From positions 1-25,126 of IMG/VR virus record IMGVR_UViG_3300005511_000853: a stretch of DNA of 25,126 nt. The stretch is one strand, 5' to 3'. This DNA is from a virus. Below, piece by piece: positions 2,717 to 24,029 of the stretch (the first letter of the stretch is position 1; each line of letters begins with the position of its first letter). The notes under the pieces are model-generated. The model was given only the letters and a program-made list of their open reading frames with translations, made no database searches and was not told where the DNA came from. A program made the translations under genes and the position numbers.

Positions 2717-3100
2717 ATGTTCATGACCGAACGCCAGTCCCCTCCCGCCGCTGCACTCCCTCCCTCGGCGGCGGAGCCTGCGGCCGGCATCGCCTCGATC
2801 CCCAACGAGGCCCCCTCGATGCCGGCCGCACCTTTTATCGAAGCCTCCACCGTGGATCCGATTCCACCAGGCGTCCGGCAATGGGCGATCGGTCCGAAGC
2901 AATGCCGCTGGATCCTCGCCGACGAGGCTGCCGGCGCCGAGGCCCTGATGTGCGGCACGCCCGTCGTGGGGCATCGCCCGTTCTGCGCTGAGCATTGTGC
3001 ACGCACCTACATGCCGCGGGTGGCGGAGGAGGGGGAAGCCAAGGAATCCGAAGAAGAAGCGATCGCGGAACACAATCCGAAACAGAAGGAGGCAGAATGA
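2717..3100 (+). CDS. GcrA-like zinc-binding protein lacking the N-terminal HTH
   Basis: This 127-residue protein has a disordered Pro/Ala-rich N-terminus (1-50), a compact middle domain (about 52-100) and an acidic tail. The middle domain has QCRWILAD, MCGTPVVGHRPFC and AEHCARTYMP, with a putative metal set at C63, C79, C90 and H93. This matches the C-terminal part of GcrA, the alphaproteobacterial cell-cycle regulator that works with sigma70 and GANTC methylation. The N-terminal DNA-binding helix-turn-helix of classical GcrA is absent. Start choice is between ATG 2717 and ATG 2723; neither has a clear ribosome-binding site. It is the first gene of the rightward operon, and its stop overlaps the start of a small winged-helix gene. 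The family call is by motif recall, not by search. Confidence 0.68.
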   Translation: MFMTERQSPPAAALPPSAAEPAAGIASIPNEAPSMPAAPFIEASTVDPIPPGVRQWAIGPKQCRWILADEAAGAEALMCGTPVVGHRPFCAEHCARTYMPRVAEEGEAKESEEEAIAEHNPKQKEAE

Positions 3101-3330
3101 TTCCGGACATGGCCCCAACGAAAGCCGAGCGCACCCGGTGTGCGATCCTCGAGCTGTTGGCCAAGGGACCCGCGCTCACTGCAGACGCGCTGGCCGATCG
3201 GCTCGATCTTTCGATTCTTTATGTCCGGCCGCGCGTCTCGGAACTGGTGAAGCAATCGCGGATCGTCGCCAGCGGAGATCGCGGCATGAATGCCAGCGGC
3301 AAGTTCGCCCGCAAATGGAGGACGGCCTAG
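3097..3330 (+). CDS. Small winged-helix DNA-binding protein
   Basis: This 77-residue protein is almost entirely one winged helix-turn-helix: helix 1 at about 9-21 (AERTRCAILELLAKG), the core HTH at 25-50 (TADALADRLDLSILYVRPRVSELV), and a wing at 52-65. It resembles MarR/ArsR-type or FaeA-like domains in fold but I recognise no specific family. Its ATG overlaps the stop of the GcrA-like gene (ATGA, 3097-3100) and is preceded by a strong ribosome-binding site (AGAAGGAGG). Because the upstream protein lacks a DNA-binding domain, the two may act together or replace a single GcrA; that is inference. Confidence 0.65.
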   Translation: MIPDMAPTKAERTRCAILELLAKGPALTADALADRLDLSILYVRPRVSELVKQSRIVASGDRGMNASGKFARKWRTA

Positions 3331-5207: not shown

Positions 5208-5249
5208 GAAAATATCACTATTGTGTGTGTTCCACTCTTCGGGTATATT
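5206..5249 (+). promoter_or_regulatory. CACTAT element copy 1 and candidate promoter
   Basis: AGAAAATAT then CACTATTGTGT (starting 5206) resembles the element at 13253-13270 (AGAAAACACACTATAGTGT) with one base inserted. From CACTAT onward, 13 of 16 bases agree. Overlapping its end is a sigma70-like pair, TTGTGT (5221-5226) and TATATT (5244-5249), spaced by 17 bases. The -10 is good and the -35 is weak. It lies between terL and the secreted-protein gene at 5376. The rest of the gap to 5375 shows only short, unconvincing reading frames. Confidence 0.45.
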
Positions 5250-11484: not shown

Positions 11485-11850
11485 TCAGGAGAAGGCTTCG
11501 AACTCCCGCGGCGCGATCGTGAAGCCGGTCCTGCGCTCGAGCGATCGCGCACCGGCGCGGAGCGCCATGCCGGACGCGGCGGGGCCGGCGCACCAGAGCA
11601 GTGCGGCGAGATAAGCCGTCAGCGGGATCGGCCTCGGATCGGAAAGGTCCGGATAGCAGAAGATCGCGATCAGCATCAGCGCCATCAGCACGGCCACGAC
11701 GATCAGCTGCGCGCCGAGAATGGCGAGCGCGCGCGACCATGCCTGTAAGGCGCGCGGCGTCCGGCTCCAGCGATGCGCCGCAACGATCAATGCCGCGGTG
11801 AGCGCCGCCGGCAGCAGGTTGGTCAAGACCACGGTCCAGAGGAAGAACAT
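11485..11850 (-). CDS. Small membrane protein, unknown
   Basis: This 121-residue protein has about three membrane segments: residues 3-25 (FLWTVVLTNLLPAALTAALI), 42-64 (LAILGAQLIVVAVLMALMLI) and 75-95 (IPLTAYLAALLWCAGPAASG). The C-terminal tail is basic and cytoplasmic in outlook. I recognise no family. It lies downstream of fic on the same strand after a 105-base gap, so the two may be cotranscribed, and it converges on the GFA gene. Holin-like hydrophobicity is a possibility, but the lysis cassette is elsewhere and the orientation is wrong for it. Confidence 0.6.
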   Translation of the reverse strand: MFFLWTVVLTNLLPAALTAALIVAAHRWSRTPRALQAWSRALAILGAQLIVVAVLMALMLIAIFCYPDLSDPRPIPLTAYLAALLWCAGPAASGMALRAGARSLERRTGFTIAPREFEAFS

Positions 11851-11955: not shown

Positions 11956-13149
11956 CTAACGCTCGGGCAGAACCGGCGTCTCACCGAAGGGGCGGTTGAT
12001 CACGGAAAGCGCTTCGCGTGCGGTGAAGAGGCGGTTGTAGCGCTGGTCGGTCGGAGCGGCGAGAATGCCGGCTTCGACCAGTTGGTCGACGGCGCGCCCG
12101 GCTGCATTGAAGGAGACCTTGAGCAGCGCAGCCAGGCGCGGGATCGTCAAAACAGGGTAGTGGGGCAGGAGGTCGATGGCATGGACAGCCGCCGAGCCGG
12201 CGCGGAACTTGCGGCGGGTGCGCCAAAGTCCCGCCAGCGCTTGAAGCGCCGCTCGGGTCGTCAGCACCTCGTCCACTGTTCCGGTGATGGCGCGTGCGAT
12301 GAAGCCGACCGCTTCCGCCGAGTCGAGCTGTTGCTGTGCGGCCTTGAGCGCCGCCATGTAGGGAGGCTTATGCGCCGCGATGTAGGGCGCGAGATAGAGC
12401 GGCGTGCGGTTCTCGGCGGCCATCATCAGCGGCAAAAGCAATCGGCCGACGCGGCCGTTGCCGTCGCGGAACGGGTGCACCGCTTCGAAATGGGCATGGC
12501 CGATTGCCATGCGGGTGATCAGGCTTTGCGTCATCGCCTGTATTCCTTCGCAGCGGAGATAGCCAATGCTCTCGGCGAATGCCGCCGCGATGCCGTCCGG
12601 CGGCGTCGGGTCATAGATGGAATAGGCGATGTCGCGCCCGCCGCCGATCCAGACGACATTGCGCCGCAACGCGCCGGGTTCATCGGCATAGGCCTTGTCG
12701 CCCGCCATGACTGCGCGATGGAGGCTTGTGACGAGATCCTCGGTGAACAATGCGTGATGTTCGGCGCCCGCGCGCGGCAGCAGCCCATCGAGGGCGGTCG
12801 CGTAATCGCGCACCTGGATCGCGGCTTCGGATGCGGCGCCGTCCGCGGTCTCTTCGACGGCCAGCAATTCATCGAGCGTGCTGTTGGTGCCGTCGATCGC
12901 GGAACTCGAGACCGCTTCTTGCCGTGTCAGGATGCGGCTGATGAGGTAGGGATCCTTGAGCTCCGCCGCCAACGTGTCGATGCGGGCCATTGCTTCGACG
13001 GCGCGGGCGTGCTGCTGCAGAATCTCCGGCGGCAGAGCGACGCTCTCCTCCGGTGGCGGCAACGGCAGCACGCCGTAATGCGCGTCATAGGGTGCCGGCA
13101 AGCGCCGCAGCTGCTTCCGAACGGTCGGCGAAAGCTCCTCTCGGCGCAT
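11956..13149 (-). CDS. fic: Fic family protein (putative AMP transferase) with C-terminal winged helix
   Basis: This 397-residue protein has the three-part layout of class II Fic proteins. The N-terminal Fic_N region carries the inhibitory helix motif at residues 82-87 as SSAIDG, where the usual inhibitory Glu is Asp. The Fic core has the complete catalytic motif HPFRDGNGRVGR from H225, expected to move AMP from ATP onto a target hydroxyl. The C-terminus has a winged helix (about 330-385, with LTIPRLAALLKVSFNAAGRA). I use ATG 13149, preceded by TTAGGAA; ATG 13185 and TTG 13215 are also open. An imperfect dyad at 13190-13215 lies upstream, so self-regulation through the winged helix is plausible. 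It runs against the phage operon and is probably cargo. No separate antitoxin is seen. Confidence 0.9.
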   Translation of the reverse strand: MRREELSPTVRKQLRRLPAPYDAHYGVLPLPPPEESVALPPEILQQHARAVEAMARIDTLAAELKDPYLISRILTRQEAVSSSAIDGTNSTLDELLAVEETADGAASEAAIQVRDYATALDGLLPRAGAEHHALFTEDLVTSLHRAVMAGDKAYADEPGALRRNVVWIGGGRDIAYSIYDPTPPDGIAAAFAESIGYLRCEGIQAMTQSLITRMAIGHAHFEAVHPFRDGNGRVGRLLLPLMMAAENRTPLYLAPYIAAHKPPYMAALKAAQQQLDSAEAVGFIARAITGTVDEVLTTRAALQALAGLWRTRRKFRAGSAAVHAIDLLPHYPVLTIPRLAALLKVSFNAAGRAVDQLVEAGILAAPTDQRYNRLFTAREALSVINRPFGETPVLPER

Positions 13150-13239: not shown

Positions 13240-13283
13240 TTTACATCATCTAGAAAACACACTATAGTGTATCTTGTTGGATC
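13240..13283 (+). promoter_or_regulatory. Late promoter candidate P2 with repeated element, upstream of capsid gene
   Basis: TTTACA (13240-13245, five of six) and TATAGT (13263-13268, five of six) are 17 bases apart, a good sigma70-type promoter. The -10 is inside a perfect 12-bp palindrome, ACACTATAGTGT (13259-13270). From 13257 to 13283 the sequence matches 22261-22287 at 22 of 27 positions, including the shared end TTGGATC. It points towards the capsid gene, 209 bases on. I infer that it drives capsid and tail genes past the inverted cargo block. Confidence 0.65.
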
Positions 13284-13491
13284 GCGGCGGCGGACAAGCC
13301 TCTCCTTATAGTGAGACCCCGCGCTTCGCCCGATCCTGCCGGTGAGCGACCGTTACCCGCGAGAGCGGCCCCGTGCCGTGCCCGATAAGCCGACGCTGTT
13401 CGATTCCGCGGCCCGGGCATCCAAGCGGACAAGCCATCGACCGTCAGTGCGCCCCACGTCGCGGGCGCGTTCACCGTTGAGGGCTAAGCAC
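13284..13491 (+). other. Capsid gene leader, about 208 bases without a gene
   Basis: This stretch lies between P2 and the capsid ATG. It contains the 11-base direct repeat GCGGACAAGCC at 13290-13300 and 13425-13435, one GANTC site (GATTC, 13402-13406), and GAGGGCTAA as the ribosome-binding region of the capsid gene. The capsid frame is open back to 13342, but that extension is Arg/Pro/Ser-rich and does not look coding. No RNA family or terminator is recognised. Together with 13150-13283 it makes a 342-base gap between fic and the capsid gene. Confidence 0.4.
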
Positions 13492-14412
13492 ATGTCCGCC
13501 AATCTCATCAATCTCCGCACGATTCAGTTTTCCGACAAGTTCGCGCTGCTCTCGCAGCAATTCGGCTCGCGCCTGCAAGGCCTGGTCGGCCAGGGCCAGT
13601 ACCAGGGCAAGCAGGCCTCGCCTGTCAACCAGGTGGCGCCGACGGCTGCGGTGCCGGTGACCGAGCGCTTCACGCCGATCGATCGGCAGGATGCGAATTT
13701 CGACCGGCGCTGGGTCTTCCCGCTGCCTTATGAGCATGCCCAGCTCGTGGACAAGTTCGACGAGCTGCAGATGCTCGGCGATCCGAAGCCGAGCCTGGTC
13801 ATGAACGCGGCCAATGCGATGGGCCGGGCGAAAGACGATGTCATCCTCGGCGCCTTTTTCTCAACCGCGAAGACCGGCGAGCTCGCCGCGGGCTCGGTCG
13901 CCTTCGGCACGACGCTCACTTCGGCCGGCGGACAGAACGTCTCGGTGCAGCAGGGCGCATCGGCGGCGACCAACCTGACCGTCGCCAAGCTGCGCGAGGT
14001 GGTGAAGACCTTCCTGCAGAACAATGTCGATCTCGACCGCGAGCAGATCACCGGCGCGCTCAACGCCAAGGCCCATGATTCGCTCTTGGGCGAGATCCAG
14101 GTCACCTCGATGGACTACCAGACCAAGCCGGTGCTGGAGGAGGGGCGCATCCGCCGCTTCATGGGCATCAACTTCGTGCTCACCGAGGAAGTCACCAACA
14201 TCTGCACCGGCACCGACGATCTCGCGGGCACCAGCACCGGGATTCCGTTCTGGGTCAATTCCGGCATGCATCTCGGCGTCTGGATCGACCAGACCACCAA
14301 CATCACGCAGCGCACCGATTTGAAGCTCCAGCCCTGGCAGATCTACATGGACATGATGATCGGCGCGACCCGCATCGAAGAGAAGAAGGTCGTGCGCGCC
14401 TGGTGTCGTTGA
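13492..14412 (+). CDS. Major capsid protein (Bbp17-like podovirus type)
   Basis: This 306-residue protein is the likely major head protein, an HK97-fold type by position and length. The N-terminus is MSANLINLRTIQFSDKFAL, followed by a region with QFGSRLQGLVGQGQYQGKQA and a beta-rich body (RWVFPLPYEHAQLVDKFDEL; TSTGIPFWVNSGMHLGVWI near the C-terminus). These resemble capsid proteins of BPP-1-like podoviruses. I chose ATG 13492 because residues encoded upstream look non-coding. It follows P2 rather than the scaffold directly, because of the cargo block, and precedes a Bbp16-like cement protein. A long half-conserved loop near DDLAGTSTG is normal variation. Confidence 0.85.
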   Translation: MSANLINLRTIQFSDKFALLSQQFGSRLQGLVGQGQYQGKQASPVNQVAPTAAVPVTERFTPIDRQDANFDRRWVFPLPYEHAQLVDKFDELQMLGDPKPSLVMNAANAMGRAKDDVILGAFFSTAKTGELAAGSVAFGTTLTSAGGQNVSVQQGASAATNLTVAKLREVVKTFLQNNVDLDREQITGALNAKAHDSLLGEIQVTSMDYQTKPVLEEGRIRRFMGINFVLTEEVTNICTGTDDLAGTSTGIPFWVNSGMHLGVWIDQTTNITQRTDLKLQPWQIYMDMMIGATRIEEKKVVRAWCR

Positions 14413-14513
14413 TCGGCACCGGTCGCGGATCGATCTACACCCCTCTCCAGTCGGCTCACTTCCCGTAAGCCCGGTGACATTCCGGCGAACGCCATTCTGT
14501 CAAAGGAGTAACC

Positions 14514-15008
14514 ATGGCCATCAACGCCTATAAGACCGTCTCCATCACCAATCTCGATGCCACGCCGATCCTGCGTGCCAATCCTTGGGTGCATGGCGGC
14601 AATTCCAAGCAGTTCGCCGGCACCGTCGAGGCGGTGAACGGCGATTCCATCGCCTCGACCTATCGCTTCTTCCGGGTCGGCTCCTGGATGCGGCCGGTCA
14701 GCCTCACGCTGTTCTGCGATGTGCTGACCGGCGGCGCCGCGGATCTCGGCCTCTATCGCGCGGCGGCCGATGGCGGTGCGGCGGTGAATGCGTCGCTCTT
14801 CGCCACGGCGCAGTCGATCGCGAGTGCCAGCGCGACCGGCATCAACGTGCGCTTCGAGGCGGACGATGTCGCCAATGTCGAGAAGCGGATCTGGGAGCTG
14901 CTCGGCCTCACCGCCGATCCCAATCTGGAATACGACGTGGCTCTCACCCTGACCGCGGGCATCAGCGCCTCCGGCACGCTCGCCCTCCAGGGCGTGTTCT
15001 CGTGGTGA
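14514..15008 (+). CDS. Bbp16-like capsid cement/decoration protein
   Basis: This 164-residue, probably beta-sandwich protein follows the capsid gene and has a strong ribosome-binding site (AAAGGAG). Sequence features such as STYRFFRVGSWMRPVSLTLF, ADLGLYRAAADGGA and the ending GTLALQGVFSW resemble the Bbp16 family of BPP-1-type phages, whose trimers cement capsid hexamers. No membrane segment is present. It is preceded by a 101-base gap with no visible terminator, so it is probably cotranscribed with the capsid gene. Confidence 0.7.
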   Translation: MAINAYKTVSITNLDATPILRANPWVHGGNSKQFAGTVEAVNGDSIASTYRFFRVGSWMRPVSLTLFCDVLTGGAADLGLYRAAADGGAAVNASLFATAQSIASASATGINVRFEADDVANVEKRIWELLGLTADPNLEYDVALTLTAGISASGTLALQGVFSW

Positions 15009-15012
15009 TGCC

Positions 15013-15207
15013 ATGGCGATTCAATACATCGGCATCAATCGCGGCCAGCAGAGCACGGACGTCGCCTCGGGCACGAGCACGACCGGCCGGCAGATCGAGC
15101 TCACGGTGAATGATGGCGTCGGCATCACCCGCAAGGAGGTGCTCGACAGTCTCGACAAGCTCCGCGACTTCATCGTGAACACGCGCGCCACCCCCTTCGC
15201 GCAGTAA
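15013..15207 (+). CDS. Small phage protein, unknown
   Basis: This 64-residue protein begins four bases after the Bbp16-like gene. It has a short N-terminal strand region (MAIQYIGINRGQQST), a beta-like middle (GRQIELTVNDGVGITR) and a C-terminal helix (KEVLDSLDKLRDFIV). Short genes of this form sit between capsid and tail genes in podovirus-like prophages. A minor structural role is likely from context; no family name is recalled. Confidence 0.62.
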   Translation: MAIQYIGINRGQQSTDVASGTSTTGRQIELTVNDGVGITRKEVLDSLDKLRDFIVNTRATPFAQ

Positions 15208-15237
15208 CCACCACCACCATCCCCTGGGTATTCGCAC

Positions 15238-15846
15238 ATGGCCTCACAGACCTCGATCTGCAACCGGGCGCTCGAATGCCTGGGGGATGCGCCGATCGTC
15301 TCGATCGACGACGACACTAAGGCGGCGAAGGCGCTGCGCCGCGTCTATGACATCAGCCGCCGCGCCTTTCTCTGCGATCACCCATGGCATTTCGCGAAGA
15401 AGCGCGCGAGCCTGCCCGCGTCCGCGGCCTCTCCCGTCTGGGGCTTCCACCGCGGCTATCCGGTGCCGGCGGATTTCCTGCGGCTGATCGCCGTCCGGAA
15501 CGGGCCGGATTTCAGCCTGGAGGCCGACGCCACCGGCTCGCAATGGATCCTGAGCGACGCCTCGGCGCCGCTCGACATCCTCTATCTCTATGATGTGGTC
15601 GATGCCGGCCGGCTGCCGCCGCATGCGGTCGAGGCACTGGCGCGCTGGCTCGCCTACGACCTCGCCGAAGATCTGACCCAGTCCAACACCAAGAAGCAGG
15701 ATGCGGCGCAGGCCCTCGCGGTGGCACTCACCCGCGCGAAACGGATCAACGGCATGCAGAAGCAGCCGGACCCCTATGCGGCCTTCTCCTTCCTCCAAGC
15801 ACGCGATCAGTCGATCCAGTTTCCCATTTTGACGACCGAAGGCTGA
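15238..15846 (+). CDS. Tail tubular protein A (T7 gp11-like)
   Basis: This 202-residue protein has the hallmarks of the gp11/tail adaptor family: an N-terminal ICNRALECLGDAPIVSIDDD, a helical KALRRVYDISRRAFLCDHPW at about 35-54, FRGYPVPADFLRL-type text (here HRGYPVPADFLRLIAV) and a closing helix bundle with ALARWLAYDLAEDL. It would form the dodecameric adaptor ring beneath the portal that links to the nozzle. Its length is typical. It is followed four bases later by the nozzle gene, the usual A-B order. Confidence 0.88.
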   Translation: MASQTSICNRALECLGDAPIVSIDDDTKAAKALRRVYDISRRAFLCDHPWHFAKKRASLPASAASPVWGFHRGYPVPADFLRLIAVRNGPDFSLEADATGSQWILSDASAPLDILYLYDVVDAGRLPPHAVEALARWLAYDLAEDLTQSNTKKQDAAQALAVALTRAKRINGMQKQPDPYAAFSFLQARDQSIQFPILTTEG

Positions 15847-15850
15847 CGGC

Positions 15851-18631
15851 ATGGTTAGGGCCTCCCCGAACTTCAACGCCTTCGATGCCGGCGAGTTTGC
15901 GCCGATCACCGAGAGCCGCACCGATCTCTCGCGCTACGGATTTGCCTGCCGTATCCTCGAGAACTTCCTGCCGCGGGTGGTCGGACCGGCTTCGCGGCGG
16001 CCGGGCACGTCCTTCATCGCCTCGGCGCGCTATCCCGACAAGGAGGCATTGCTCGTTCGCTTCGAATACTCGACCGAGCAGGCCTATGTACTGGAGTTCG
16101 GCCATCTTTACGTTCGCTTCTACCGCAACGACGGTCCGCTGCTCGAAGCCGCGAAGACGATCACCGGGGCGACCCAGGCGAATCCTGTCGTCCTGACCAT
16201 CGCCGGCCACGGCTATGCCAACGGCGACGATGTTGAAGTTGCCGGTGTCGCCGGCATGACGCAGTTGAACGGCCGCCGCTTCCGGGTGGCGAACAAGACC
16301 GCCAACACGATCGAGCTCACCGACCAGCACGGCACCAACATCAACGGCACCGCCTATGCCGCCTATGTTTCCGGCGGTGCGGTGGCGCGGGTCTACACGC
16401 TCGCAACCACCTATCAGGAAGGCGATCTCGGCCAAATGAAGTTCGCGCAATCGGCCGACATCCTCTACATCGCCCATACCGAATACGTGCCGCGCAAGCT
16501 GCAGCGTTATGGCGCCACCAACTGGGTGCTGGGCCAGGTCGATTTCCAGGATGGGCCTTATCTGCCGGTCAACGGCGCGCAGACCACGCTGACGCCCTCG
16601 GCGGCTAGCGGCGCCGGCATCACCATCTCTTCGGCGCTTTCGGTGGCGATCACCGGCGCGGCCAACAACGGCGCGGGCGCGATCCGCATCGCCTCGGCCA
16701 GTCACGGCTGGAAGACCGGCGACAGGATCGACATCAGCGGAATCCTCGGCACGACCGAGGCCAACGGCACCTGGACCGTCACCCGGGTCAATGCCAACGC
16801 CTATGACCTCAATGGCTCGACCTTTGCCAATGCCTATGCCAGCGGCGGCACGGCGAAGCCGCATATCTTCGAGCCGACCGATCTCGGCCGCCTGATCCGC
16901 ATCCAGCATTCCAGCACCTGGGGCTATGCCAAGATCACCGCATACACCAGCGCCGTCTCGGTGACGGCGGACGTGCTCGGCAATTTCGGCGGCACCACGG
17001 CATCGGCAAGCTGGCGCCTCGGCCTCTACAGCCAGGGCGGCGGCTATCCCTCCTGCGTCACCTTCTACGAAGGGCGCCTCTTCTGGGGCGGCTGCCCTCT
17101 GACACCGACACGGGTCGACGGCTCGATGTCGTCCAACTACGAGACCTTCTCGCCGTCATCGACCGCGAGCGTCGTCGCCGACGACAACGCCGTCGCCTAT
17201 CCGCTGGATTCCGGTGACGTCAATAACGTGCTCTGGATGAAGGACGACGAGAAGGGTCTGTTGGTCGGCACCAAGGGCGGCGAATGGGTGGTGCGCGCCA
17301 ACACCCTCAACGGCGCATTGACGCCGACCAACGTGAAGGCGACCCGCGCCACCACCTACGGCTCCTACGAAGGCTCGCAGCCTGTTCGCACGGGGAAGGA
17401 CGTGATCTTCGTGCAGAGGAAGCGGCGCAAGATCCGCAACCTCAACTACACTTACGAGATCGACGGCTTCAACGCCGGCGATCTCTCCATCCTCTCCGGC
17501 CATATCGGCCGCCTGGAGTTCGGCCAATTGGCCTTCCAGTCGGAGCCGGAGGGCTGGGTCTGGATGACCCGCGGCGACGGCCAGCTCCCGGTCCTCACCT
17601 ATGATCGCGACGAGCAGAAGATCGGCTGGTCGCGGCAGATCCTGGGCGGCTTCCAGGACGCGGCGCGGCGCCGGCCGCCGATCGTGCGCTCGGTCTGCTC
17701 GATCCCGGATCCCAACGACGCGCGCGACGAGGTCTGGCTGATCGTGCAGCGGATGATCGGTGGCCGCACCGAACGTTACATCGAATTGTTCGCACCCGAA
17801 TGGGAGAACGCCGACGACCAGGAGCAGGCCTTCTACGTCGATTCCGGCCTGATCTTCGACGGCCGCCAGGCGCAAACTTTGCAGCCCGGCGCCGGCGCCG
17901 CGGTGAAGGGCACGGCCGGCGTCGTCTTCACCGCCGGCGGCAGCGTGTTCAAGCTTGCCGATGTCGGCCGCGAGATCTCGATGCGCTGGTTCGACTACAC
18001 CGCCCTCGATCCCGAAGACCCCGCGATCCAGGGCGCCTGGGTCTCGGCCAAGGCGCGAATCACCGGCTACACGTCGGCGACGCAAGTGACGGCGACCATC
18101 CTCGCCGCCTGGCCCAATCTCGATCTCGTCGCCGCGAACGGCTGGCGGCTTTCCGCGAGCGCGCTCTCCAACCTCTGGCATCTCGAAGGCGAGACCATCA
18201 GCATCAACGCGGAAGGCGCCACGCACCCCGACGTCGTGGTCGTGGGCGGCCGCGCACCGCTCACCCGCGCGGTCGGCTACGCGGTCGCCGGGCTCCAGTA
18301 CGATTCGCGGCTCCAGACCATGCGCATCGAGGCGGGCGCCACCGACGGCACGGCGCAGGCGAAGGTGAAGCGGATCAACGAGGTCACCTTCCGCGTGCTG
18401 CAGAGTCTCGGCGGCGAGGCGGGGCCGGATTTCGCCAGCATGGTGCCGTTGAAGTACCGCACCACCACGATCCCGCTCGGCCGGCCGCCGGCGATCGCCG
18501 ACGACGACTGCCGCGTGCTCTGGGACAAGGGCTACGAGACCAAGGGCCGCATCGCGCTGCGCCAGTCCGCACCCTTCCCGATGACGGTGATCGCGGTCCT
18601 GCCGCAGGTCACCACCTACGACAAGGGCTGA
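15851..18631 (+). CDS. Tail tubular protein B / nozzle protein with two FCCH-like repeats
   Basis: This 926-residue protein fits the podovirus nozzle, a hexamer that forms the tail tube tip. The N-terminus (FNAFDAGEFAPITESRTDLS, then RILENFLPRVVGPASRRPG) is typical. Two insertions of the FCCH type occur: about residues 112-180 (VLTIAGHGYANGDDVEVAGV) and about 275-340 (ASHGWKTGDRIDISGILGT). The rest resembles the beta-propeller part (GRLFWGGCPLTPTRVDGS; NVLWMKDDEKGLLVGTKGGE; DEVWLIVQRMIGGRTERYIE). FCCH-like modules are common in phage nozzle proteins and may act as decorations. Start at ATG 15851, four bases after the gp11-like stop. Confidence 0.85.
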   Translation: MVRASPNFNAFDAGEFAPITESRTDLSRYGFACRILENFLPRVVGPASRRPGTSFIASARYPDKEALLVRFEYSTEQAYVLEFGHLYVRFYRNDGPLLEAAKTITGATQANPVVLTIAGHGYANGDDVEVAGVAGMTQLNGRRFRVANKTANTIELTDQHGTNINGTAYAAYVSGGAVARVYTLATTYQEGDLGQMKFAQSADILYIAHTEYVPRKLQRYGATNWVLGQVDFQDGPYLPVNGAQTTLTPSAASGAGITISSALSVAITGAANNGAGAIRIASASHGWKTGDRIDISGILGTTEANGTWTVTRVNANAYDLNGSTFANAYASGGTAKPHIFEPTDLGRLIRIQHSSTWGYAKITAYTSAVSVTADVLGNFGGTTASASWRLGLYSQGGGYPSCVTFYEGRLFWGGCPLTPTRVDGSMSSNYETFSPSSTASVVADDNAVAYPLDSGDVNNVLWMKDDEKGLLVGTKGGEWVVRANTLNGALTPTNVKATRATTYGSYEGSQPVRTGKDVIFVQRKRRKIRNLNYTYEIDGFNAGDLSILSGHIGRLEFGQLAFQSEPEGWVWMTRGDGQLPVLTYDRDEQKIGWSRQILGGFQDAARRRPPIVRSVCSIPDPNDARDEVWLIVQRMIGGRTERYIELFAPEWENADDQEQAFYVDSGLIFDGRQAQTLQPGAGAAVKGTAGVVFTAGGSVFKLADVGREISMRWFDYTALDPEDPAIQGAWVSAKARITGYTSATQVTATILAAWPNLDLVAANGWRLSASALSNLWHLEGETISINAEGATHPDVVVVGGRAPLTRAVGYAVAGLQYDSRLQTMRIEAGATDGTAQAKVKRINEVTFRVLQSLGGEAGPDFASMVPLKYRTTTIPLGRPPAIADDDCRVLWDKGYETKGRIALRQSAPFPMTVIAVLPQVTTYDKG

Positions 18632-18636
18632 CGCGC

Positions 18637-19065
18637 ATGCTCATCATCCCCTACGCGCCGCATCACCTGCACCAGCTCGCACTCCAGCCGCACCAGCAGC
18701 ATCTGGGCGTCGCCCTGCGCGAACACGGCTGGGCCGAGCAGGTGCGCGATGCCGGTCCCTGCTGGACCGTCTTGGTTGACGAGAAGCCGATCGCCTGTGG
18801 CGGCTTCCAGGAATGCTGGGAAGGCCGTGCCATCGCCTGGGCGATCCTCGGCGAGAAGGCGGGCCGGCACATGCTGGAATTGACGCGCGCGGTCCGGCGC
18901 GGATTGCAGGACCATCCGGCCGAACGCATCGAGGCCCAGGCGCTGGTGGGATTCGCGCCGGCGACACGCTGGGCACGGCTGCTCGGCTTCATGCCGGAGA
19001 CGCTGCTCCGGCGCTTTCACCAGGGCCGCGACTACCAGGCCTTCGTTTTCCTCAAGGACAGGTGA
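18637..19065 (+). CDS. T7 gp13-like protein with acetyltransferase-like fold
   Basis: This 142-residue protein resembles the small GNAT-like proteins encoded after the nozzle gene in T7-type phages (gp13/DUF2833). Pieces in order are: a His/Leu-rich start (PHHLHQLALQPHQQHLGV), a core with WTVLVDEKPIACGGFQECW, a helix before residue 100, and an ending (ATRWARLLGFMPETLLRRF) matching acceptor-side text of GNAT proteins. An acetyl-CoA loop of the Q/RxxGxG/A form is not clear (EKAGRHMLEL lies in its place), so enzymatic activity is doubtful. In T7 the protein is needed for virion assembly. ATG 18637 is six bases after the nozzle stop. Confidence 0.68.
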   Translation: MLIIPYAPHHLHQLALQPHQQHLGVALREHGWAEQVRDAGPCWTVLVDEKPIACGGFQECWEGRAIAWAILGEKAGRHMLELTRAVRRGLQDHPAERIEAQALVGFAPATRWARLLGFMPETLLRRFHQGRDYQAFVFLKDR

Positions 19066-19071
19066 CGCATC

Positions 19072-19530
19072 GTGTGGGCTCCGATTGCAATGGCCGCGGT
19101 TCAGGCGGTCGGCTCGATCGTTTCCGGCATCGGCCAGCATCAGGCTGCAAAGAGCCAGGCCAAGGCCGATCAGCAGAACGCGCGTCTGGCGGAATGGCAG
19201 GGGGAGAGCGAGGCCACGGCGATCCGGGAACGGGCACGCCGTCTCTCCGGTGAGAGCCGCGCCGCGATAGGCGCGTCGGGTGTCGACATCTCGGGCTCTT
19301 TCCTCGACGCGCTCTCGGACAGCGACATCAACGCCGAGCTCGATGCGCAAACCGCGGTCTGGAACCGCAAGGTCGAGGCGGGGAATTACCGCTTCCAAGC
19401 TCGCCAGGCGCGGGCCGCCGGACAGGGAGCCTTGATCGGTGGCTTCCTTGGCGCGGGTAGCCAGGCGTTGCAAGGCTACGGAAACCAGAAGGTCTTCAAC
19501 GCAATGAACACCAAGCCTGGAGCAAGTTGA
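19072..19530 (+). CDS. Internal virion protein (T7 gp14-like)
   Basis: This 152-residue protein starts at GTG, with ATG 19090 as an alternative. The pattern is that of gp14-type ejection proteins: a hydrophobic N-terminal helix (IAMAAVQAVGSIVSGIG), a long charged helix (about 25-75), the conserved RRLSGESRAAIGASGVDISG, and a C-terminal hydrophobic Gly/Ala segment (GALIGGFLGAGSQAL). Gp14 leaves the virion early and forms the outer-membrane part of the DNA channel in T7. Its stop overlaps the next ATG by one base (TGATG). Confidence 0.8.
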   Translation: MWAPIAMAAVQAVGSIVSGIGQHQAAKSQAKADQQNARLAEWQGESEATAIRERARRLSGESRAAIGASGVDISGSFLDALSDSDINAELDAQTAVWNRKVEAGNYRFQARQARAAGQGALIGGFLGAGSQALQGYGNQKVFNAMNTKPGAS

Positions 19531-21755
19531 TGGCCGTCGTGGAAATCTACCAGGCGCGGGAAACGCCCCAGGCGCGCGTGACCATGCCGAGCGGAGAGAA
19601 CCCGCTCGCGGAGCAGTTCGGCGGCGCACTGTCCGAGCTTGGTGACACCGCGGGGCGCGTTGCTGGCCAGATCGCCGAGGCGGACCGGATTGAAGATGAG
19701 AAGGCCTGGAAGCAGCTCCAGCCGGAGATTGCGAAGGACCTTGCGCAAAGCGGCCTCGACTGGACTGCGGCTTACGCCGACATGAAGGAAAACGCACCGG
19801 CGGATCTGGCCGGGTTCCAAGATCAGGTGAAAGCCTGGGGCGACAAGCGGCGCGACGAGCTATTGAAGAAGTATCCCGGCCAGAAAGCAGCCGACGCCAT
19901 CGAGCTGCATTTCGCGGAGTTGATGCGCCAATACGGCAGCGCGGCGATCGTCGACTCCACGGATGCCAAATACAAGTCAGTCGGCAATTCGATGCAAGCC
20001 GCGCTCGACAAGACCGCAAACAACGTCGCGCTCAATCCAAAGCAATACAATCTCGGCCGTCAGAGCATGCTGGATATGGTCGAGGCGGCGAACGTCTCTC
20101 AGTCCTTCAAGGACGATTGGCGTGCCAAGATCGATCATGGCTTGGCTCGCGCGCTGTTCGTCGGCCGCCTGAGCGACAATGATGCGACCGCGGCACGGAC
20201 GATGATCGATTCCGGCATCTATAATGACCGGTTGTCGTCCGAAGACCTTCTGGACCTTCGACAGCAGATCGATGCCACGGTCAAGGCGAGCGATGCCCGG
20301 AAGACTCAAATGACCACGGAGAATCAACGCGCCGAGCAGGCGCGTTGGAGTGTGACTTTCAGCGATGCACTCACGACGGCACGTGCGAAAGGCACGCAAA
20401 CGCTGATCAGCGATTCCATCATTCGCCGCATCTGGGGTGGGTCGCCGGAAGGCGATGTGACCGCAGAGCAGATGATCCGCAAGCTGCATGCCGAGGAGAA
20501 GAAGGGGCAATTGCAGCCGCTCGTCGATTCAAACACGCCGGCGCAGAACCAAGCGCTCGGCGACACGCTCGATCCCAACAAGAAACCGAACTTCAGCGCC
20601 GATGATGCCGAGACCTACCAGATCTTCAGCGGCCTCTTGAACCAGAAGGAAGCGGCATTCGCGGGCGACGACCCGGCGGGTGCCGCGTTGAAATACGGTC
20701 CCGACGTCGCGAATGCCTGGTCGGAGTTCCAGCAGGATTTGATGAACAAGACCAAGTTCCGGACCGCGACCGCACTGACCGTGATCGAACAGGAACGCCA
20801 AGGCGTTCCAAAGGACCGACAGCAGCTCATGCCGAAAGAGATCGCGAGCTGGGTCGCCGACCAGATCAAGAAGCAGCCGGACAACAGCGCGAGGCTGCAG
20901 ACGCTCCTGGATTTCGCCAACCTCGGCGACGAGCAGTATTCCCGCGACGTGGTTGCGCAGCTCGGAGAGTATCTTCCCCTCGGGTACAAGTTCGTGGTCG
21001 ACATCGCCGATCCCCTGCATGCCGGAAACTCGGGCGACAAGGTGCTTGCTGAAAAGGTGCTGGCCGAGTTGACGGTTGATACTGGCGGTGTTGAACTTAC
21101 GCAAGAGACGGAGAACGCAATCAGGGTTGGGCTTCTCGACGTGCTGTCGACGCCGGCGCGGCTGACGGACGATCTGGATGCGGCGACGCGTCAGAGGCAT
21201 GCCTCGCTTACGCGTGCGGCCATTCAGATAGCGAAGGCTAAACTACTGGCCAGGACGACGACAACTGAAGGGAAGGACACCAGTATCGAGGCAGCAGCTG
21301 GTCACGAAGCTGTGGATGAGCTACTCAGTCAGTATCGCACCCTTGGCGACCCGGACTTGGCTCGTATCATCTATCCGAAAGCCATTGAAACACGATCCCC
21401 GGGGGCAATTGCGGCAGGCCTCTCTGCATTCCGAGATGAAATTGCAGCCGATGAGCTCAAGGCCAGGGCCGGTGTCGGCTCAGAGTCGAAAGGGCCTGGC
21501 TATCGCAATATATCCGATGCCGAGACGGCTATTTGGATCAATCATCGCACGGGCTTCGTTCTCGTGCGGCCAAGCAAGAAGATCTACGACACCGATCGAA
21601 AGTCCGCAGCTCAGTTCCTCAAGTTTGTGACGATCGAGGAGACAGAACAACGTGGCCTTCGGGCATTGATGGAGAAAGAGCGCCAAGATGAGGAGTGGTC
21701 GAAACAGCTTGAGCAGCCCAACCCGGGCCAAGGTTCGGAACTGGACCCGTTCTAG
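19530..21755 (+). CDS. Large internal virion (core/ejection) protein
   Basis: This 741-residue, mostly helical, hydrophilic protein takes the place of T7 gp15/gp16. N-terminal text (MAVVEIYQARETPQARVTMP; ENPLAEQFGGALSELGDTAG) is typical of ejection proteins in podovirus-like prophages. No lytic transglycosylase motif was found in it, and no second large core protein follows, so one protein may serve for both. I start it at ATG 19530 rather than the TTG at 19527. The last 180 or so codons (from about 21200) use visibly less GC-biased third positions than the rest, and this shift continues into the cargo gene beyond, suggesting a recombination joint inside this gene. Confidence 0.75.
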   Translation: MAVVEIYQARETPQARVTMPSGENPLAEQFGGALSELGDTAGRVAGQIAEADRIEDEKAWKQLQPEIAKDLAQSGLDWTAAYADMKENAPADLAGFQDQVKAWGDKRRDELLKKYPGQKAADAIELHFAELMRQYGSAAIVDSTDAKYKSVGNSMQAALDKTANNVALNPKQYNLGRQSMLDMVEAANVSQSFKDDWRAKIDHGLARALFVGRLSDNDATAARTMIDSGIYNDRLSSEDLLDLRQQIDATVKASDARKTQMTTENQRAEQARWSVTFSDALTTARAKGTQTLISDSIIRRIWGGSPEGDVTAEQMIRKLHAEEKKGQLQPLVDSNTPAQNQALGDTLDPNKKPNFSADDAETYQIFSGLLNQKEAAFAGDDPAGAALKYGPDVANAWSEFQQDLMNKTKFRTATALTVIEQERQGVPKDRQQLMPKEIASWVADQIKKQPDNSARLQTLLDFANLGDEQYSRDVVAQLGEYLPLGYKFVVDIADPLHAGNSGDKVLAEKVLAELTVDTGGVELTQETENAIRVGLLDVLSTPARLTDDLDAATRQRHASLTRAAIQIAKAKLLARTTTTEGKDTSIEAAAGHEAVDELLSQYRTLGDPDLARIIYPKAIETRSPGAIAAGLSAFRDEIAADELKARAGVGSESKGPGYRNISDAETAIWINHRTGFVLVRPSKKIYDTDRKSAAQFLKFVTIEETEQRGLRALMEKERQDEEWSKQLEQPNPGQGSELDPF

Positions 21756-21766
21756 AGCGATCCATC

Positions 21767-22123
21767 TCAGTGCTGACACGGATAGCGTTCGACCATCGAA
21801 ATGATGATTCCGGAAATGGCAGCTTTGTCTTGGTCCGCTGGATTCGTCGAAGCCCAAAGTCGAAACGCCAGGCTCATATCATCGGGGCTTAATCCGCCTT
21901 TCGGGTAGCAGAACGGAATTTTTGCGCCATAGAGATCGGCCGAGGCTTCGAATGCGTCCATCACGCCCAGTATGTATGTCTGGCACATCTGATGGAGTGC
22001 GGTATTCTCGCTCTTACAAGCATGGGCGAGCGTCTTGACCTTCAAGTCGGATGCTGCGCACGGAGCGTTAAGTCCGAAACAGACCGCTAGGCAGATCGGT
22101 ATTCCGGTAATCAGCCTTGCCAT
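21767..22123 (-). CDS. Secreted Rap1a/Tai-like protein (immunity-protein fold), cargo gene
   Basis: This 118-residue protein has a signal peptide (MARLITGIPICLAVCFGLNA, cleavage near AAS at about 24). The mature part shows the pattern I recall for the Rap1a/Tai family: CKSENTALHQMCQTYILGVM with DAFEAS, then FCYPKGGLSPDDMSLAF, then a closing helix and YPC. Four conserved cysteines would make two disulfides in the periplasm. Rap1a and Tai proteins bind and neutralise type VI amidase effectors, but many family members stand alone with no known partner. No effector gene is near. It faces left, against the phage operon, has GAGGGA before the ATG and lower GC than its surroundings. All of this points to horizontal cargo. 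Confidence 0.68.
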   Translation of the reverse strand: MARLITGIPICLAVCFGLNAPCAASDLKVKTLAHACKSENTALHQMCQTYILGVMDAFEASADLYGAKIPFCYPKGGLSPDDMSLAFRLWASTNPADQDKAAISGIIISMVERYPCQH

Positions 22124-22165
22124 TTTTCCCTCAATCAGCGAGCGGTCCGACGCCCGTCCCAGTTT

Positions 22166-22202
22166 GCTTTGTCGAATAGTTGCCGCAATGTTCTAACAAA
22201 GC
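22166..22202. repeat. Inverted repeat GCTTTGT/ACAAAGC upstream of the Rap1a-like gene
   Basis: Seven-base arms (22166-22172 and 22196-22202) flank a 23-base centre in the AT-richer gap between the leftward cargo gene and promoter P3. No T-run follows either arm, so it does not look like a terminator. It could be an operator or a chance event. Confidence 0.25.
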
Positions 22203-22243
22203 GCGCGATTGAACAAGGCCTGTTTGGGTTCAACGGTTTTCCT

Positions 22244-22287
22244 TTGCTTTAAGCTAAAACACACACTATAATATATCGAATTGGATC
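22244..22287 (+). promoter_or_regulatory. Late promoter candidate P3 with repeated element, upstream of tail fibre
   Basis: TTGCTT (22244-22249) and a perfect TATAAT (22267-22272) are separated by 17 bases. The stretch 22261-22287 is the second full copy of the element at 13257-13283 (22 of 27 bases, from ACACACTATA to TTGGATC). Over the longer span 22250-22287 the match is 29 of 38. It points to the fibre gene 80 bases downstream and lies behind the leftward cargo gene, the same geometry as P2 behind fic. Confidence 0.68.
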
Positions 22288-22367
22288 AGCCGGCTCGGCG
22301 TAGTCCGCCCGGAAGCCGTGCCTAGCCCCCTATCTGCGCTGCAGTGGCATTCCCGAAGAGGTTCGAG

Positions 22368-24029
22368 ATGACCGTTTCCAGCACGATCAACCGTGAGCAA
22401 TACGCGACCGATGGCGTCGCCACCGCTTTCGCCATCCACTTTCCGTTCTTCGACGACACCGATGTGAACGCGGTCTATGTCGATGCTCTGGGCAGTGCGA
22501 CGCCGCTGGCACTCAACGCCGATTACACGGTGAGCGGCGGCGGCGGTGCGGGCGGCACGCTCAACGCCATGCTGGCGCCGGCAAGCGGCGGTGCGCTCAC
22601 CATCTATCGCGAGATTCCGTTCGTCCAGGAAGACGACTATGTCGAGGACGATCCGCTGCCGGCGGACACGCTCGAAGGCGGCTTCGACCGCGCGGTGATG
22701 CGCGATCAGCAGTTGAAGGATGCGCAGAATCGCGCGCTGACCTTTCCGGTCACGATCGATGCGGCTGTCTCGGCCGAGCTGCCGAGCCCGCAGGCCGATC
22801 GACTGCTGGGCTGGAAGGCGGACGGGAGCGGCCTTGAGAACAAGAGCCTGCCGGCTGGGACTGCGGTCTATGCGTCCTTCGCAAGCACCAATGCCGGATT
22901 ATCGCAGGCGGAGGCAGTCACACCCTTCGCGCTCGCCAGTTCCAACCTCGCCGCCGAGGTCCATGCCGCGACCGCGGGCGTCGCGGCCGCCGCAGCATTG
23001 CCGGGCCCGAACAAGATCATCAACGGTGGCATGGATATCGCCCAGCGCGGGACCAGCTTCGCCGCAGCAGTATCCAACACCTATTCACTTGACCGCTGGA
23101 ATTGGGGCGCTGCGGGAACAGGCGTGGTGACGATCACGCAGGCCGCCGACGCTCCGCCCAACAGCGAGTTCCAAAACTCGCTGCGGGTCACCGTCACGAC
23201 GGCGGATGCCGCGATCGCTGCCGGCGATGTCTATCTCGTGCAACAGCACATCGAGGGCTACAACGCCCGCGACCTCATCGGGCGAGATATCGCCATCAGC
23301 TTCTGGGTCCGGTCTGCCAAGACCGGCGTCCACTGCGCTTATCTCAACAACGGTGTAAACGATCGGGCGTACCTGATGCCCTTCACGGTCAATGCCGCGA
23401 ACACCTGGGAGAAGAAGGCGCTCAGCGTTCCAGGAGGCCTGATCACCGCCGGCACATGGAACTGGACCACCGGCAAGGGCCTCTCCTTCGGCTTCGCGCT
23501 AGCCGCCGGAGCGACTTGGCAGGCCGCCGCCGGCACCTGGCAAACCGGAAACTTCTGCGGCATCGCCGGCGCGGTCAACTGCCTCGACACGGTCGGCAAC
23601 ATCTTCGCCATCACCGGCGTGCAGCTCGAGCAAAACTCGGCGGCGACGCCGTTCGAGCACCGCCCGCTGCAGCAGGAAATCGCGCTCTGCGAGCGGTACT
23701 ACCAGAAGAGCTTCCCGCTCACGATCGCGCCGGCGCAGAACGCGGGCCTGTTCAATGGCTGGGCGCAGCCTGCCGGCGCTGCGGTTGGCCAGACCGTCAC
23801 GTTTGTTCCGTTCCGCACTCGCATGCGTGTCTCACCGACGGCTCTCACGCTTTACAACCCCCTCGCCGCGAATGCGCAGGCTCGCAACACGGCGACCAAT
23901 ACGGATTGGAGCTCCACCGCCGCGGCCGTGCTCAATGAAACCGGCCTCACCTTTACCGGTACGTCGCCAGGCGGATCGGCGGCCGGCAACCTTTGCGGCC
24001 TCAACTGGGCAGCGGACGCGGAGCTTTAA
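22368..24029 (+). CDS. Tail fibre protein with T7 gp17-like N-terminus
   Basis: This 553-residue protein begins with a T7-fibre type anchor: MTVSSTINREQYATDGVATA, FPFFDDTDVNAVYVD, LNADYTVSGGGG and IYREIPFVQEDDYVEDDPLP over about residues 1-110, followed by a helix (FDRAVMRDQQLKDAQNRAL). A middle domain begins at KIINGGMDIAQRGTSF and YSLDRWNWG and looks like a carbohydrate-binding beta-sandwich. The C-terminal domain ends in WAADAEL, an ending often seen in phage receptor-binding proteins. I chose ATG 22368 with AGAGG upstream; GTG 22344 is in frame. It is expected to bind the host surface glycan. No reverse transcriptase or template repeat is near, so no diversity-generating element is called. 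Confidence 0.85.
   Translation: MTVSSTINREQYATDGVATAFAIHFPFFDDTDVNAVYVDALGSATPLALNADYTVSGGGGAGGTLNAMLAPASGGALTIYREIPFVQEDDYVEDDPLPADTLEGGFDRAVMRDQQLKDAQNRALTFPVTIDAAVSAELPSPQADRLLGWKADGSGLENKSLPAGTAVYASFASTNAGLSQAEAVTPFALASSNLAAEVHAATAGVAAAAALPGPNKIINGGMDIAQRGTSFAAAVSNTYSLDRWNWGAAGTGVVTITQAADAPPNSEFQNSLRVTVTTADAAIAAGDVYLVQQHIEGYNARDLIGRDIAISFWVRSAKTGVHCAYLNNGVNDRAYLMPFTVNAANTWEKKALSVPGGLITAGTWNWTTGKGLSFGFALAAGATWQAAAGTWQTGNFCGIAGAVNCLDTVGNIFAITGVQLEQNSAATPFEHRPLQQEIALCERYYQKSFPLTIAPAQNAGLFNGWAQPAGAAVGQTVTFVPFRTRMRVSPTALTLYNPLAANAQARNTATNTDWSSTAAAVLNETGLTFTGTSPGGSAAGNLCGLNWAADAEL

Follow-up and report, generated by a model that had tools for sequence, protein, structure and literature searches.

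Late promoters and a leader RNA in a podovirus-type element

The 25,126-bp virus record IMGVR_UViG_3300005511_000853, a temperate element of podovirus type that has genes for the connector, capsid, tail and fibre as well as lytic genes, carries two similar promoter-like elements, one before the capsid gene and one before the tail fibre gene, each behind a gene of leftward orientation. We analysed the entire record (the window), and the genome scan covered this record and its relatives. The locus raises the question whether such promoters arrive with the leftward cargo genes, as a module that keeps downstream virion genes expressed, or belong to the virion genes that they precede. We consider it likely that one explanation covers the observations: late promoters that are fixed in place and co-regulated, together with a leader of the capsid mRNA that acts on translation. 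The promoters themselves are unremarkable, and it is their conserved position that corrects the cargo-module reading; the surprise is the leader RNA.

A promoter element is repeated at two virion genes

The two copies agree at 22 of 27 bases (13257-13283 and 22261-22287) and at 29 of 38 over the longer alignment (13246-13283 and 22250-22287), reproducing exactly the counts of the original prediction, which was made from the sequence of this window. They are the sole pair of 38-mers in the window with at least 29 matches, and the joint pattern, with at most three mismatches allowed, was matched twice in the window and never in 100 shuffles. No third copy of the joint 27/38-bp pattern is present in the record. 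Hexamer positions confirm the sigma70-type -10 and 17-bp spacer proposed for both copies. A spacing of 17 bp, within the 16-18 bp of sigma70-type promoters, is found at all three late promoter sites listed here and is also readable at the capsid promoter of relatives; from these features we infer promoter activity.

13240-13268, + strand: capsid promoter, with -35 TTTACA (13240-13245), a 17-bp spacer and -10 TATAGT (13263-13268); in the capsid relatives a sigma70-type promoter of 17-bp spacing is readable at this place
22244-22272, + strand: fibre promoter, with -35 TTGCTT (22244-22249), a 17-bp spacer and -10 TATAAT (22267-22272)
5221-5249, + strand: promoter before a secreted-protein gene, with -35 TTGTGT (5221-5226), a 17-bp spacer and -10 TATATT (5244-5249)
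13492-14412, + strand: major capsid protein (PF19821)
22344-24029, + strand: tail fibre

The gene order was also described correctly: each copy lies behind a leftward gene, encoding a Fic protein (PF13784 and PF02661) and a Rap1a protein (PF18602), respectively, and 5' of a virion gene (capsid; fibre).

The capsid mRNA has a conserved, structured leader

Approximately 215 nt between the capsid promoter and the ATG are kept in the lineage, and a transcript from this promoter would open with a conserved folded leader composed of the following parts.

13277-13491, + strand: structured, conserved leader RNA of the capsid mRNA
13279-13336, + strand: outer helix, GGATCG (13279-13284) with CGATCC (13331-13336), a predicted pairing
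13290-13322, + strand: motif copy M1, with an upper stem imperfect in the window and intact in the relatives L003-L007 and L019
13346-13360, + strand: hairpin B, by by-eye comparison
13367-13435, + strand: motif copy M2, GGCCCCG (13367-13373) with CGGACAAGCC (13426-13435)
13381-13417, + strand: motif copy M3, inside the M2 loop
13434-13482, + strand: hairpin P3, CCATCGAC (13434-13441) with GTTGAGG (13476-13482), predicted to cover the ribosome-binding site; on its 5' side it shares bases with the 3' strand of M2

The predicted outer helix would explain why TTGGATC is conserved after the capsid promoter. Single-sequence folding of the window leader gave no signal, and comparison was therefore needed. 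Upstream of capsid genes from distant prophages of alphaproteobacteria (about 30-40% identity), the leaders hold a common core, GGGUCCG...CGGGCAACCC. In the leader motif, two helices flank a G.U or A.C wobble followed by a three-base xAA bulge; the arrangement is hairpin-wise in M1 and circularly permuted in M2. Each leader contains two or three copies, the third (M3 within M2) occurring in the window lineage and, by eye, in L014. In L007, M1, M3 and P3 fold as drawn, P3 with a z of -3.8.

Comparison across leaders supports the structure

An exact IMG/VR scan for the leader core returned 28 stretches, most of them leaders of PF19821-like capsid genes, recognised by their N-terminal sequence; the remaining stretches look like chance or coding matches. 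Two models were used, R1 comprising 13 distant leaders and R2 containing no member of the window lineage. The model is restricted to M1 and M2, since MAFFT did not bring stem A and hairpin B of distant leaders into register. R1 recovers leaders outside its training set (L022, L060, L075 and L063, for example). Over 385 alphaproteobacterial genomes it gave three matches, two in the training set and one outside, all directly 5' of a PF19821 capsid gene. R2 matches fall at the capsid leader in L015 (E 5e-5), L011 (6e-4), L004 (0.002) and L007/L008 (0.04). Across 23 aligned matches, 13 of the 17 pairs changed on both sides, with a covariation score of 0.365 versus 0.158 +/- 0.017 for shuffled and at most 0.113 for slid alignments. 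Compensatory changes thus accompany a position 5' of the same gene family, and these comparisons show both the structure of the leader and its association with the capsid gene.

The exceptions to this placement are low-scoring chance matches and two stretches before another capsid type: GGGTCCGGTTTTACCGGGCAACCCTC, at L092:2610-2635 and L106:6155-6180, precedes a T7-type-looking capsid gene, by chance or through a wider spread of the leader motif. At L096:4698-4909, a group I intron (RF00028) lies ~0.65 kb 3' of the capsid leader, and the capsid frame stops at 211 amino acids.

A known RNA family was rejected, as no curated Rfam covariance model matches the leader; with Rfam 15, nothing in the window leader matched at E<=1, and no match reached gathering score in 13 canonical-form loci. 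Our literature search found no description of such a leader, and an earlier one may be contained in a 2017 list of 224 candidate RNAs. The leader is apparently an undescribed cis-regulatory RNA before the capsid gene. R2 gave no matches among GenBank phages of Vibrio, Alteromonas, Yersinia, E. coli, Methylophilales, Pelagibacter and Manatee Spring. To the eye, the M2 hairpin is retained in the leaders from Manatee Spring (MW202898, MW202510) and in those of pelagiphages, a likeness not statistically supported. The pelagiphage form, also read by eye, is a hairpin with C.A and GAA beside UCUC/CUUUC, a stretch able to pair either with the Shine-Dalgarno sequence or with a run of purines upstream.

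The leader may switch capsid translation

As its 3' strand, M2 uses GCC in the lineage and CCC in other leaders; the same bases can pair with the ribosome-binding region (GGCUU in the lineage, GGAGGG elsewhere), and this shared strand renders M2 and the full P3 mutually exclusive in the predicted pairing. Such exclusivity suggests a translational switch that would hide or free the ribosome site. A motif-recognising factor, which may be the capsid protein or some other RNA-binding protein of the phage or its host, would then set capsid translation, and the leader probably controls the amount of coat protein made. We advance only tentatively the more specific proposal of a new phage RNA class, in which capsid translation would be switched by binding of the motif copies to the capsid protein or to a dedicated partner, distributed over alphaproteobacterial prophages and, in reduced form, HTVC010P-group pelagiphages.

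It is conceivable, if rather unlikely, that the leader is instead conserved for RNase processing, for mRNA stability, or as a separate structural or packaging RNA. The leader ends at the ribosome site yet is far longer than a Shine-Dalgarno hairpin requires, and its several identical motif copies might be used in processing or in the assembly of RNA with protein; however, in all cases that score well it stands immediately before the capsid gene, and the strand common to M2 and P3 fits translational control.

Explanations of the large capsid output of tailed phages usually invoke promoters, ribosome sites and gene order. Translational mRNA leaders are familiar from ribosomal-protein genes and from riboswitches that hide the Shine-Dalgarno sequence. 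The capsid leader shares with them a conserved 5' structure, a predicted alternative pairing at the ribosome site and a single downstream gene family; it differs in preceding a phage major capsid gene, in its repeated, circularly permuted G.U/A.C-wobble motif and in having no Rfam family. The manA and wcaG RNA motifs of cyanophages, likewise phage-carried structured RNAs found by sequence comparison, precede metabolic or exopolysaccharide genes; capsid genes are unmentioned in that paper (PMC2864571), whereas the leader described here precedes one. Its position before one capsid family, possibly including that of Pelagibacter phages, would make RNA-level control of capsid synthesis testable with reporters.

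A palindrome recurs at the late promoters

The core common to the three late promoters is the palindrome ACACTAT(A/T)GTGT.

5215-5226, unstranded: palindrome site 1, 11/12, its right half forming the -35
13259-13270, unstranded: site 2, the perfect palindrome ACACTATAGTGT over the -10, a putative operator
22263-22274, unstranded: site 3, a degenerate palindrome, 10/12

Matches of at least 10/12 occur three times in the window, versus 0.25 expected from shuffles, so that the same palindrome is found at several promoters more often than by chance. The possible third relative of the element, suggested before the secreted-protein gene, is real; it is better placed at 5215-5226 (TCACTATTGTGT), and there the palindrome covers the -35 and not the -10. 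In several phages the palindrome is positioned at or near the end of the terminase gene, before the capsid gene and before the fibre gene, and it adopts two geometries at corresponding places, over the -35 and over the -10. As it overlaps the -35 at site 1 and the -10 at the other two sites, its conservation is more than that of a -10 box. The bases shared beyond the -10 and -35 do resemble a regulator site, as had been proposed, in the form of a palindrome common to several promoters. We infer that the palindrome is an operator for a regulator of the three late promoters, whose binding would block them or time them together. In L010, L011 and L015, which are without ACACTATAGTGT, a CATA...TATG-type inverted repeat lies within the same promoter or next to it, as though the operator had changed its specificity.

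Operators repeated within one phage are known from the c1 operators of P1 and the stoperators of mycobacteriophage L5. The likeness consists in one palindrome at several promoters of a single phage; here, unlike there, the sites number only three, all belong to late promoters and all differ from the repeats of the phage's own S24 repressor. That repressor was rejected as the owner of the palindrome, which was not found at its gene; the control region there carries different repeats.

1949-2647, - strand: S24-type repressor, with control-region repeats TTGCGAATTGCGCAA and TTGCGATTTAAGCGAA
2717-3330, + strand: candidate regulators, comprising an open reading frame (ORF) like the sigma-interacting C-terminal domain of GcrA (2717-3100) and a winged-helix ORF (3100-3330)

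Of its family, the GcrA-like ORF covers only the C-terminal, sigma-interacting region (PF07750 positions 54-149), with a match of E 3e-5 that lies slightly under the Pfam cut-off. It adjoins the winged-helix ORF and is kept in the window lineage. GcrA homologues of phage origin are known, as in phiCbK (PMC9437464).

The same promoter type before four DUF2280-like paralogues in the Rhodospirillaceae R-7 genome makes a host regulator possible, and the palindrome may, on a doubtful but arguable view, be the operator of such a regulator, with the phage late promoters plugged into a host regulon. R-7 carries exact palindromes outside its prophage, of which one lies beside recA and three overlap the -35 of promoters that serve dispersed DUF2280 genes, and the differing repeats of the phage S24 repressor point the same way. 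Against this, the DUF2280 genes are phage-like, and their sites may be remnants of related elements; as paralogues they are not independent cases; and R-7 single-mismatch sites are about as numerous as a rough base-composition estimate gives. The four dispersed paralogues (L041, L042, L045 and L046; DUF2280, PF10045, was checked for the L045 copy) contain TQTxxRQ peptide repeats, and their promoters carry the palindrome as at phage site 1. At L043, recA and a divergent ORF that is secreted-protein-like are separated by an interval with a perfect ACACTATAGTGT; the promoter region of recA, TACTATGGTTTGCTTCATTGGATTCGAGG, is like the phage capsid promoter and leader start.

Passenger genes vary upstream of fixed promoters

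Leftward cargo genes of the window are the following.

11956-13149, - strand: fic cargo (PF13784, PF02661), differing among relatives
11485-11850, - strand: second leftward cargo ORF, without a Pfam match, differing among relatives
21767-22123, - strand: Rap1a-family cargo (PF18602), differing among relatives

The pre-capsid element is present at the same place in seven IMG/VR relatives (L003-L009) and in the R-7 prophage (L019), whatever lies upstream. In the window and L005 this is GFA, a small leftward gene and fic. L008 carries fic but lacks GFA; in L003 and L004, GFA is accompanied by other DNA; in R-7, GFA stands directly before the element and fic is missing; and L007 is without either gene. 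Farther relatives (L010, L011, L014 and L015) have different promoter sequences at the same place, with 17-bp spacers discernible by reading. At the fibre site, a promoter with the palindrome is present in R-7 and in L026/L029. In L026/L029 a long virion-region ORF ends 25 bp before this promoter, with no cargo between, while the R-7 slot holds a Fic gene with DUF4172 that is co-directional, so inverted cargo is not the rule. The fic, GFA and Rap1a genes thus vary, being absent from close relatives at the same place, and the promoter does not come and go with them.

The same element in cargo-free relatives, named in the original prediction as evidence against a cargo-plus-promoter module, is what these comparisons reveal: the pre-capsid element persists without fic. 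Because the promoter is kept while the upstream content differs, it belongs to the downstream virion gene, and a cargo-linked promoter cassette was rejected for the capsid copy. Likewise, the TTGGATC read as a possible mobile cassette edge is, at the capsid copy, the 5' end of the conserved leader RNA. Judged from these comparisons, the late promoters stay at fixed places and passenger genes vary just upstream; passengers would come and go there, and the virion genes would keep their own start.

The fibre copy appears to have a different history.

22237-22287, + strand: stretch like capsid-type promoters, matching the R-7 capsid promoter at 39/51 positions and ending in TTGGATC

Over 54 bp, the window fibre promoter matches the capsid promoters of R-7, L007 and the window at 40, 36 and 33 positions, versus 23-26/54 for other fibre promoters, which match among themselves at 30-36. 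The likeness to capsid promoters stops at TTGGATC. The exact pattern was found at the fibre gene of no other IMG/VR contig, all three exact matches being capsid sites. The claim of a true duplication thus holds in that the fibre copy looks copied from a capsid-type promoter. Such a promoter was probably copied into the fibre slot, replacing the usual fibre promoter of the lineage, and cut at TTGGATC.

Arrival of cargo and promoter together, with the promoter restoring downstream expression, is improbable. Both window copies do stand behind leftward cargo, and the transplanted-looking fibre copy adjoins a Rap1a gene not found in the relatives read, but the capsid copy occurs without fic, fibre-site promoters occur without adjacent cargo, and the slot cargo varies in family and direction. 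Only in the case of the fibre copy might promoter and Rap1a have arrived together.

The variable passengers (fic, GFA, Rap1a) in fixed slots between virion genes are like phage morons; unlike in morons, the promoters here act for the virion genes downstream and remain where the passenger is absent, and no passenger-linked terminator was identified. Passengers appear to be tolerated by insertion just upstream of resident late promoters, without bringing a downstream promoter along.

Weighing the combined explanation

The last alternative, that the leader is translated as an N-terminal extension or short ORF and conserved at the protein level, is very improbable and was rejected: a GTG-initiated frame from 13342 does run into the window capsid gene, but leader lengths of close relatives differ by non-multiples of three, and helices, not codons, track conservation.

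Several observations weigh against the explanation by fixed, co-regulated late promoters and a translational capsid leader. The window leader itself is a poor example: the folding energy of the entire leader is not unusual (z -0.5), the upper stem of its M1 is imperfect, and its R2 match is weak (E 0.3) and displaced. The covariation alignment was fitted to the model, with M1 and M2 first drawn by hand. The palindrome over the -10 might partly be promoter sequence with chance symmetry, site 3 of the window reaches only 10/12, and the palindrome is missing from the capsid promoter of L010, L011, L014 and L015. In the window, no terminator stood out from chance.

Genomic setting

The element (window 1-25126; in R-7, L051 and L052 on contig 1, about 190,000-214,250) is without recognisable integrase or replication genes, and no integrase motif was found in the scanned R-7 flanks, the chromosomal examples numbering only two. 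The same DUF445 host gene (85% identity) adjoins the element in the window and in R-7, amid metabolic genes. The whole element could be domesticated or gene-transfer-agent-like.

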